Positions 29,728-42,447 of a stretch of DNA of 64,000 nt are shown in pieces. A program made the position numbers and the translations under genes. Every line of letters starts with the position of its first letter. The first letter of the stretch is position 1. Under the pieces are notes generated by a model. That model was not told the origin of the DNA, made no database searches, and worked only from the letters and a program-made list of their open reading frames with translations. The stretch is from Adhaeribacter radiodurans (lineage in GTDB: Bacteria > Bacteroidota > Bacteroidia > Cytophagales > Hymenobacteraceae), in the NCBI RefSeq assembly GCF_014075995.1, contig NZ_CP055153.1:806001-870000 (forward strand). Reading direction: 5' to 3'.

Positions 29728-29860
29728 ATCAATAAGATTTCTCCACTATATCCTAATTCTGACTTTTACTAATACCCAATTGCATTAAGTAATTAGTAAA
29801 TTCTACCTGGTATAAGAAGCTGTGTAGTATTTGAAATAAGGTCAAGATACGTCTACGTCG

Positions 29861-39800: not shown

Positions 39801-40577
39801 CTATTTTTCACCTAACATTTTTTTAATACCGGCAATGTCTACCGCGTTAGCAGCCGTCATTAATTCGGGTTCGTCTTTAAAGTTAACGCCTTCGTAAACT
39901 AATACCGACGATTGACCCACTGGCACCGTAAGTTTATATCCCGAATTTTCGTCGTACTCAATTACGGCCCGGTTTCCTTTTACTTTTGTTTGTTTCCAGT
40001 CTTGTTTACCACCTGTGGTTTGGCTATAACCGCCGTTGCTTAAATACAAGTTTACCGCAGAAAGTAAGGCAGCATTATTAACTACCGTAACCGTTAATTC
40101 TTTCTCGTTGCTATCGGTATACTGGCGTTGAATAGTAAGCCCTGCCCAGCCCCAACCCGTGCTGGTAACCTGATCTGATTCCGCATTTTTCTTCAGGCCT
40201 GAAATAGCTTCTGGTAAGGATTTTAATATTTTTTGTCCGATTTCCATTTCAACGCCTAACATGGCTTGTTGCAGGGCCGCGCGGCTTTGGCCGTATTGAC
40301 CAGCCTTATATTTACTTTCGGCATTGGTAAGGTTTTCTTTTACATCGGGGGGAGTAGTAACCAAACCCGCTCCACCCTTATTACGAGCCCGGCTGCCCGA
40401 AGAAGTAGAAGGAGTAGGGGCAGGAGAGGTATTTTTGTCGGTGCCTAGTGCTTTGTTAACGGATTGCTCCGCCGCATTTTCCAATTTTTGACGTACTTTA
40501 TTCAGCAACTGGGCATTTGCATGGTGTTGCATAAAGCAAAGACCAGAAACAATGCAGGTTAAGTAAAGGATTTTCAT
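39801..40577 (-). CDS. Secreted protein of unknown function, paralogue A
   Basis: I start the gene at ATG 40577 (MKILYLTCIVSGLCFMQHHANA), which gives a proper signal peptide, although the frame is open to 40625. The 258-residue product has a short Ser/Pro/Arg linker after the signal, then the same helix and beta arrangement as the 39151 gene (YKAGQYGQSRAALQQAMLGVEMEIGQKILKSLPE, VVNNAALLSAVN). It ends in MLGEK. Function unknown. Its position upstream of its paralogue suggests a duplication. Confidence 0.8.
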   Translation of the reverse strand: MKILYLTCIVSGLCFMQHHANAQLLNKVRQKLENAAEQSVNKALGTDKNTSPAPTPSTSSGSRARNKGGAGLVTTPPDVKENLTNAESKYKAGQYGQSRAALQQAMLGVEMEIGQKILKSLPEAISGLKKNAESDQVTSTGWGWAGLTIQRQYTDSNEKELTVTVVNNAALLSAVNLYLSNGGYSQTTGGKQDWKQTKVKGNRAVIEYDENSGYKLTVPVGQSSVLVYEGVNFKDEPELMTAANAVDIAGIKKMLGEK

Positions 40578-40784
40578 AATAGCGAAAGGGTATTTAAGGA
40601 TGATTAATATGAATAAACTATACAAAATAATAAAATTTATGTGAATAGGTATAATTTAGGCGATGAATTATTTTGTTTTCTTAATTTTAGTAAGATGAAT
40701 GCGGAGTTTAGCTTACTAATTGGAAGGAAGTAATATTGAAGCGTATTAAAAAGCTACTATAGATTTTGCTTGCTAGTAAGCGTT

Positions 40785-41352
40785 TTCTTTGGAGCCGGTT
40801 CCCGTCTCCATTTTACTGTGCTAACTTATTTGACAAGTAACCAGCTTGCCTCGTGGCCGGCGGGCCTCGTTTGGCTCTCTCGGGCGGTTTAGCGAACCTT
40901 GGCTCACTGCGTTGCGCCATGCTGCTTTGCAGCACCGGAACGCTAAAAGGCCCGAGAGAGCCAAACTGGTGTCTTTGCTGGTAGCTACTGCTTTTCTTCC
41001 CCATCTTGAATAATTAAGAAGGAAAATGATTTTAATGGGCGGCTACTTATGACAAGAATTACCGGAATCCAGCTTCCTGTTCTGCTTCCCCTCTCAGTAG
41101 ATTCTAATGAATTCTGCTTCATACCTTTTAATACTACTAAAAAAGTAAAAACAGTAGCTAAGAATAAAGACACCAGTTTGGCTGTGGAGCACCTGCTAGG
41201 CTTCTGGTGCGAAGCATTCCGCAGACGGAGTCGAGGAAAGGAAGGCTAGCGAGGGCGGAAGAGCCAAACGAGGCCCGCCGGCCACGAGGCAAAACTTGAA
41301 ATATCAAACAAGTTAGCACCGCCGTCTGGAGACGGGAACCGGCTCCAAAGAA
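40785..41352. repeat. GC-rich foldback element, 568 bp
   Basis: Outer arms of about 90 nt (from 40785 and ending 41352) are imperfect reverse complements: TTCTTTGGAGCCGG, CCCGTCTCCA, GTGCTAACTT and CCTCGTGGCCGGCGGGCCTC are shared. Inside the left arm a 16-bp perfect hairpin pairs 40870-40885 with 40950-40965. A further pair, CCAAACTGGTGTCTTT at 40961-40976 and its complement near 41166-41181, lies internally. Short frames inside carry no recognisable protein. GC content is far above that of the surroundings. Confidence 0.85.
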
Positions 41353-41502
41353 CAACATCAAAGTTCGCTATAGCAACTACTTCTTACTATTGCGTATAAT
41401 ATCTAGAAAGTTTACTAAACCACACCAGAAAACTTTTGATTGAAAATTAAGGTAAATTCGCTTAGGTAAATAGGGGAAGTGACAAAAGCTAAAGGCTACT
41501 TA

Positions 41503-42447
41503 CTATATTTTTATAATTTGCTCTTTCGCTCGATCCCAACGCCAATATGGCGCGCCGGGTTGTAAATGGACGCCACCTAACCAGCGATTCACTGGGTGAA
41601 GTTGTACGTAGTCGCATTCTAACCGTAAAGTTTTGCGTCCTAGGCCGGTAACGGAAATAGTATCCTGCATTCTAATTAAATTTGCTTGTTCCAATTCTTG
41701 CAGGTAATTTATAATTTGAGCATCGCCGAGGCCAAATAAACTGGTACGTTGCCAAAATTTCTGGAACAATTCGATAGTTGTGGGTTGGAGTTCGGCGATA
41801 ATTTCCAGTAATAACTGCTCTATGGCGTTTAAACCATTTTGTACCGACGGAAAACGTGTGAGATGGGCGCGTAGGGCAATTGGCAGTAAAGGTAAATTGG
41901 TAAAATCTTCTTCCTCTAAAAAATGAATTAAAGCTTCGGGGGTGGGTGCCGCGTAAGCTTTCCAACCACGATCTCCCAAAGTTAAATCTGCGGGAGTAAG
42001 TATTTTCCGTTGCGGAAACAAAGCTGCTAATTGTTCCGGAGATAGTTCGCCCAAACCTTTAAAGTCCGGCTTTTCGGGATGGGTACCGATGCAAACCAGG
42101 CTTAAAGTTGTATTTGTTACATTTTGTTGTGCAAACCAGTGCAGGAGGTACAATAAATTTACCTGGCAAAGTAAGTCGTGCTCAAACCACAGTACTACTT
42201 CGTCGTGCTGGTTGTAGGTGGCGAGGCGTTTTACCTCCGTAGTTACTTTTAATACATAAACTGTAGGCGCTTCCTGATAGGTCTGGGAAATATAATGCTG
42301 CCGGGCTTGCCAGAAATCTACAACTGATCCTTGGTCTACAATAGGGCCTTCAAATAAAATCTCACGCCAGATAAGGTAATCATCAGCGGGGATGTTTGCT
42401 TTTTTAAATGAGTTGGCCGTTCCGTCGCCGTTCAGGATGTGCAGCAT
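41503..42447 (-). CDS. DUF1835 domain protein
   Basis: The 314-residue protein starts with MLHILNGDGTANSFKKANI and has LIWREILFEGP, VLWFEHDLLCQVNLLYLL and, toward the end, WRWDRAKEQI, matching DUF1835 (PF08874) and its companion C-terminal region. It is cytoplasmic and without a signal peptide. No activity has been assigned to the family as far as I know. It is a single gene upstream of GDPD. Confidence 0.85.
   Translation of the reverse strand: MLHILNGDGTANSFKKANIPADDYLIWREILFEGPIVDQGSVVDFWQARQHYISQTYQEAPTVYVLKVTTEVKRLATYNQHDEVVLWFEHDLLCQVNLLYLLHWFAQQNVTNTTLSLVCIGTHPEKPDFKGLGELSPEQLAALFPQRKILTPADLTLGDRGWKAYAAPTPEALIHFLEEEDFTNLPLLPIALRAHLTRFPSVQNGLNAIEQLLLEIIAELQPTTIELFQKFWQRTSLFGLGDAQIINYLQELEQANLIRMQDTISVTGLGRKTLRLECDYVQLHPVNRWLGGVHLQPGAPYWRWDRAKEQIIKI

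Follow-up and report, generated by a model that had tools for sequence, protein, structure and literature searches.

The element considered here lies in a 64,000-nt stretch of the Adhaeribacter radiodurans genome, the whole of which was analysed and is termed the window, and is located between two leftward open reading frames (ORFs) at 39801–40625 and 41503–42447. An ORF scan detected no frame of 100 amino acids or more within 40626–41502, in agreement with the first-pass annotation, which had recognised no gene at this position; no Rfam match at the gathering score was recorded anywhere in the 64,000 nt, and the window gave no tRNA match. Including an outer shell, the element spans 40734–41396 with TAA on either side, and is longer than the 40785–41352 assigned at first pass, an interval that covered the core and missed the shell. 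Its component features, in window positions, are as follows.

40731–40733, unstranded: TAA, left copy of a proposed 3-bp target duplication (from the sequence and the family duplication statistics)
40734–40787, plus strand: left shell end, type T1, resembling the left end of an IS630 element in the sister species G001 (constant 58-nt distance to the module; comparison of T1 with the insertion sequence ends)
40788–40994, plus strand: module alpha (module HMM match C2:846789-846994; alpha type)
40788–40810, plus strand: small outer hairpin TTTGGAG-C-CGG-TTC-CCG-T-CTCCA, the start of module alpha (compensatory stems CGG/CCG, CTT/AAG and CTG/CAG in 77 modules)
40869–40966, plus strand: head hairpin of module alpha (26-nt arms, 92%; covariation)
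40995–41147, unstranded: spacer between the modules, in which no conserved gene was seen (gap of 154; by eye, aligned copy L021 has a stop in the corresponding frame)
41148–41349, minus strand: module beta, inverted (module HMM match C2:847148-847348; beta type)
41176–41269, minus strand: head hairpin of module beta (sequence and alignment)
41327–41349, minus strand: small outer hairpin of module beta (pattern match C2:847325-847349)
41350–41396, minus strand: right shell end, type T2, resembling the right end of the G001 IS630 element (constant 51-nt distance; comparison of T2 with the insertion sequence ends)
41397–41399, unstranded: TAA, right copy of the proposed target duplication (from the sequence and the family duplication statistics)

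Inverted arms were recovered at 40785–40833 with 41304–41352 (49 nt, 86%) and at 40846–40905 with 41233–41292 (60 nt, 78%), together with an inner hairpin pairing 40869–40894 with 40941–40966 (26 nt, 92%) that contains the perfect 16-bp hairpin (40870–40885 with 40950–40965) reported at first pass. Folded as single-stranded DNA, the interval 40785–41352 reached −168.2 kcal/mol as against −78.6 (sd 5.4) in 100 shuffles, none of which equalled it (z = −16.6), and its description as a foldback with inverted arms was thereby upheld. The further description of a nested foldback was borne out in so far as inverted pairs do lie inside, but these form two separate hairpins (40869–40966 and 41176–41269) with a spacer between them rather than one continuous foldback. 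In a similar manner, the claim that the element is far more GC-rich than its surroundings holds against the immediate intergenic flanks (0.498 for 40785–41352 compared with 0.270 and 0.327) and less so against the neighbouring genes, the value for the window being 0.404; within the element the arms stand at 0.63 and 0.60 and the middle at 0.37. The spacer, which appears protein-like by eye in the window copy, was considered as a possible gene and rejected on account of the stop in L021.

When the whole-genome and related-genome search for copies proposed at first pass was carried out on 59 genomes, with only the best 10 candidates per genome scored, eight matched, seven of them among the eight genomes of the genus; the eighth match, 25 nt in G023 (E = 9e-4), was taken as chance. 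A 24-base core pattern, with up to three mismatches, was present at 140 sites in the element's own genome (G000), 86 in G005, 83 in G003 and 45 in G006, at a single site in each of G001 and G002, and at none in G004 or G007 (the latter a 78% complete assembly), and the reversed pattern used as a control was found in none of the eight. The search with the element itself, which is looser and scored 10 candidates per genome, returned at least 11 diverged matches in G001, 14 in G002 and 1 in G007. Across 84,980 species, a set that may omit close relatives of the own genome, an exact core 20-mer occurred in 20 stretches, every one in Adhaeribacter records; viral contigs, plasmids and phages gave no match to the core. 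The window element is one copy of a dispersed, gene-less, intergenic mobile family in the genus Adhaeribacter, and the outcome named at first pass as fatal to a mobile repeat, a single copy without relatives, is excluded by the many dispersed copies across the genus. No account of this repeat family was found in those parts of the literature available to the search.

The repeat unit of the family is a 208-nt hairpin module, two of which, inverted with respect to each other, constitute the element core. The 114 module matches (fragments included) in approximately 506 kb fetched around matches comprised 44 inverted pairs, or doublets, and 26 unpaired modules, the latter typed as beta (8), gamma (8), alpha (5) or left untyped (5). 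Own-genome modules less than 600 bp apart, fragments of one module excepted, all face each other, mostly across a gap of about 150–175. Among the 36 of 44 doublets in which both heads could be typed, 29 combined alpha with beta, compared with 16.2 expected if these heads were paired at random; none of 10,000 permutations reached 29.

An alignment of 77 of the 92 modules then known, partial modules being left out, revealed small outer hairpins with stems of CGG/CCG, CTT/AAG or CTG/CAG, and a head hairpin that was also variable. For 33 named base pairs, 92.9% of cells were paired, and cells with both sides changed numbered 313 as against 117.7 in shuffles (0/500 reaching 313) and no more than 62 when the pairs were slid; these figures include two pairs set one column off (7-19 and 97-194) that were left in. 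Further pair types did not rise above shuffles (105/500). Diverged modules from G001 and G002 have had their small stem replaced entirely. It follows from such compensatory changes that one folded strand or the other, as DNA or RNA, has been maintained.

The same compensatory changes, and the replaced stem in G001 and G002, are what would be expected of a structured RNA gene family in which modules are conserved since they are transcribed and folded, their dispersal being secondary. That reading is considered improbable: no Rfam match was obtained, two inverted modules would fold on both strands, no strand preference could be separated from mutation bias, and copy number ranges from 0 to 140 among the genomes of the genus. 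With regard to strand, A-C was tolerated more than G-T at paired positions on the plus strand (51 versus 20); a minus-strand fold suggested by the paired positions (fold energy −74.1 versus −72.6, p = 0.037) was dropped because unpaired columns are biased in the same direction. The first-pass suggestion that the element could encode a long folded RNA gained neither support nor refutation from the Rfam search and the strand comparison.

Comparison of sites with and without the element, likewise proposed at first pass, demonstrated that the genes flanking the window copy adjoin without a module in G005 (82–97% protein identity) and G003 (67–83%), the exact insertion joint being unreadable owing to divergence of the intergenic sequence. 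In G006, where the stretch fetched contains no module, stops interrupt the right-hand gene, and the gene is absent from the other four congeners; in L176/L177 (G006:C1:4327409-4328346) this orthologue of the 41503–42447 gene is split into two frames. On the basis of ORFs of at least 70 amino acids rather than annotated genes, the neighbours of 33 doublets were convergent in 17 cases, tandem in 14 and divergent in two. Thirty-one of these doublets overlap no ORF of 150 amino acids, the exceptions being 4630226, into which a 410-aa ORF reaches, and 4720106, which has a 152-aa ORF inside it. Copy 20166 splits a terminator-like palindrome, with AAAAAGTCTCTGGCAGT on one side and CTGCCAGAGACTTTTT on the other. 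Insertion into hairpin loops as a rule was nevertheless rejected: copy 20166 (score 35) and L226 (score 27) are striking, but 3/38 of the group reach 16 compared with a null of 10.9%. Also rejected was a composite transposon with cargo between distant modules, no transposase being found in the one interval read (L114).

Many own-genome doublets end in two unlike sequences, T1 (58 nt) and T2 (51 nt), both of which start TWATACC[A/C]AATNGTA, with the spacing from the core constant at 58 and 51, respectively. Of 26 elements with both ends scoring at least 11, doublets being also required to show the expected distances, 17 had the same three bases outside TACC at the two ends (permuted mean 11.05, p = 0.0032). 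TWA agreed on both sides in 12 of 15 related pairs from G001, G002 and G005, full insertion sequence included, the exceptions being L294, L297 and L300; these pairs stem from 20 loci, five of which lacked a second end, and the informative part of the agreement is the middle base, because the search pattern itself demands TWA. In the own genome, 25 exact occurrences of the terminal repeat (TIR) were counted (control 0); allowing one mismatch raised the count to 84 (control 12).

The same TIR brackets other MITEs with other interiors: elements of 126–127 bp with a different central palindrome in the own genome (L242-L245), in which TWA agrees in 2/4 by eye, and, with the same IS630-type ends, elements of 196 bp in G002 (L283-L286) and 226 bp in G001 (L287, L289, L290, L292). 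By itself within the window stands a TIR-like match at 29770–29784, TAATACCCAATTGCA, followed by GGTATAA after some tens of bases, which is possibly a tiny relative or remnant.

Sister species G001 carries a 1164-bp element that is bounded at each end by the exact TIR and flanked on each side by TAA. Its two frames match the IS630 family transposase NF033545 (E = 2.3e-25 and 4.1e-15), both scores falling below the whole-protein cut-off, a shortfall to be expected when frames are split, and also match Pfam DDE_3 and HTH_32. T1 was nearer to the left end of this insertion sequence in 19 of 27 comparisons (right end in two), and T2 to its right end in 24 of 27 (left end in one). At L293, a TIR of this kind is accompanied by a second IS630-like frame (62% over 105 aa). 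Among the own-genome loci fetched, one weak IS630-like fragment was detected (L250, 37% over 82 aa) and no IS630 transposase with these ends. An IS5-like parent (PF01609) was discarded, since no credible TIR pair was present among 27 loci and the candidate L272 failed inspection.

The absence of an internal gene, TIRs in common with a full insertion sequence, and a short target duplication are all features of MITEs, and were all observed. As with IS630-family MITEs, the element has the terminal repeats of a full IS630-type element, a short duplication, no gene and many intergenic copies; unlike them, it is 663 bp long in the window, has a hairpin core, and its duplication is read as a 3-bp TWA rather than TA. 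The target duplication of IS630 is TA. Judged by these sequence comparisons, the element now has defined ends and a probable parent in the IS630 family. MITECca01 of Cardinium is likewise a lineage-specific Bacteroidetes MITE with ends that match its parent insertion sequence; it differs in being about 240 bp in length with an IS982 parent, and no hairpin core is described in the available part of the source (PMC9769881).

It was apparent from the distribution of shells and cores that the two do not always coincide. Core-less shells, each built around a single central palindrome and in some cases decayed at the ends, were recognised in G000 (L115, L118/L224, L220, L222), and in congeners at L225-L227 (G005, similar by eye), L231 (G006), and L232 and L234 (G003); these may be deletion products. 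At L116, L117 and L127 the shell surrounds a cut-down core, in L127 near the foldback base on both arms, and these three are likely deletions across the hairpin. A few congener copies, for example L217, retain TIR-like ends.

According to one explanation, the element is a plain IS630 MITE in which shell and core are mobilised only as a unit by the IS630 transposase; a shell lacking its core, or a core lacking its shell, would be a product of decay (deletion of the foldback tip, or divergence of the ends), and no second machinery would be required. The constant spacing of T1 and T2 from the core in the own genome, and the existence of the three truncated foldbacks, accord with it. It is nonetheless thought rather unlikely, as in most of the congener copies seen the module starts sharply at TTTGGAGCC with differing flanks, the core is found in either orientation, and exact TIR counts are out of step with module counts. 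The exact TIR was found once in G003, three times in G006, 17 times in G005, 25 in G002, nine in G001, seven in G007 and not at all in G004, so that G003 has one TIR against 83 core sites, G006 three against 45, and G002 25 against one; since the two do not track each other, the shell cannot be the mover everywhere.

Orientation was scored in 17 own-genome alpha-plus-beta doublets with a gap below 250 in which both ends could be typed, an inner T1 motif serving for this in some: alpha lay beside T1 in nine and beta in eight (9:7 with strict typing). A tree of the cores implied at least five orientation changes, two of them forced by starred branches, and the orientation labels were not clustered on it (163/500 shuffles as low), a pattern consistent with a core that either enters a palindromic site facing one way or the other, or is inverted afterwards. 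Near-even orientation that changes between near relatives would also be produced by an invertible DNA element, recombination between its inverted arms flipping the core as a switch, yet the core contains no gene, no linked recombinase was noticed, and convergent contexts outnumber divergent ones by 17 to 2 of 33, and such a switch is regarded as very improbable.

The inverted arrangement of the modules invited comparison with REPINs and BIMEs and their RAYT (TnpA-REP) proteins. From the portions of PMC3116915 and PMC6006769 available, the likenesses comprise an inverted structured pair, many intergenic copies, singles beside pairs, and a genus rich in Y1/RAYT-like genes. The 44 inverted pairs among 114 matches correspond to the inverted, many-copy intergenic pairs of REPINs, but a 20–40 bp palindrome with a GTAG or CGTC tag was not found, the 77-row alignment showing a 208-nt module with no invariant tag; the REPIN unit is given as 20–40 bp in the available part of PMC3733652. 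Also unlike REPINs, the element has two obligatory types, alpha and beta, and lacks a module at any RAYT-like locus. PF01797 (RAYT-like) gave 27 matches distributed over all eight genomes of the genus, and none of the 27 loci, read to about 1.5 kb on each side, carried the module; the hypothesis that it serves a RAYT gene as cognate repeat was accordingly rejected. The layout of the element thus works like that of a REPIN, and, with no module at 27 RAYT loci, the element could not be assigned to that class.

The only RAYT group that could be placed in all four high-copy genomes (L111, L136, L143, L140 and L152, from G000, G005, G003, G006 and G002, respectively) has repeats beside its genes that differ from the module; the grouping excludes L134, L142, L148 and L149, which gave no frame, and L151, which gave a wrong frame. 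RAYT-like genes with flanks read mostly have their own inverted palindromes alongside. Such pairs, of a type that differs by group, were seen at L110-L113, L133, L135, L136, L141, L143-L145, L147, L150 and L152, and these loci look like Bacteroidetes REPtrons; the accessible text of PMC6006769 describes, for Bacteroidetes subclass 2.6, atypical secondary structures and inverted palindromes beside RAYT genes. Six own-genome doublets have long spacers with extra palindromes (C2:2920807-2921590, 3325069-3325745, 1316636-1317491, 1326125-1326918, 3154095-3154824 and 2970303-2970976). The repeat beside RAYT gene L112 is also found inside at least two long-spacer doublets, and the elements therefore also collect other repeats.

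The explanation favoured, by somewhat better than an even chance, is that of a two-layer non-autonomous transposon, in which the MITE shell of an IS630-family insertion sequence surrounds a giant REPIN-like core that has moved apart from it. The shell (40734–40787 and 41350–41396) would be cut and joined in trans at its terminal repeats, TWATACC[A/C]AATAGTA, by an IS630 transposase, which would insert it intergenically and generate a 3-bp TWA duplication, the ends and the duplication being those observed above. The core of two inverted 208-nt modules would stand where a simple shell has one central palindrome, its modules having been kept as folded single strands, as the compensatory changes show. 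A host HUH/Y1 (RAYT-type) protein would most likely recognise them as single-stranded DNA hairpins during replication, and the core may thereby multiply, be lost and change orientation apart from the shell. In favour of this two-layer explanation, besides the copy numbers, matching ends, duplication, empty sites and compensatory changes, are the separability of shell and core and the RAYT-like genes of all eight genomes, those inspected having paired palindromes of their own. Counted against it are the failure of the TWA duplication in 9/26 and 3/15 cases, the mismatch between exact TIR counts and module counts, the lack of an IS630 transposase with these ends among the own-genome loci fetched, the 27 RAYT-like loci without a module, the unreadable insertion joint, the chance that core-less shells are deletion products, and the decayed T1 of the window copy, which has TATTGAAGCGTA in place of TACCAAATNGTA. 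The view taken at first pass, that of a non-autonomous mobile or structured repeat, is supported by the dispersed copies, empty orthologous sites, IS630 terminal repeats, 3-bp duplication and compensatory changes. A more specific proposal, offered tentatively and as falling short of probable, is that the central palindrome of the IS630 MITE serves as a docking site for another foldback that is mobile in its own right. This foldback would be a giant REPIN of alpha and beta partner units, entering either way round, and a single element would thus unite the ends of a DNA transposon with the mobility of single-strand hairpins.

The two-layer arrangement would join two kinds of small repeat usually treated apart, DDE-transposase MITEs and HUH-linked REPIN-like hairpins, and the modules illustrate compensatory evolution clearly, in a molecule that may be DNA and not RNA. 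Genomes of the genus range from 0 to 140 core sites, the shell occurs with or without its core, and a sister species has a parent insertion sequence, all of which opens the growth of such elements to test; for annotation, a gene-less repeat with more than 100 core sites gains ends and a probable parent. As a separate observation, one small core-less shell in G005 (L225, G005:C1:5822038-5822180) is seemingly located inside a RAYT-type palindrome pair (GGCCAGAGGCC / CACGAGCGTAGACGCTCGCG; by eye).
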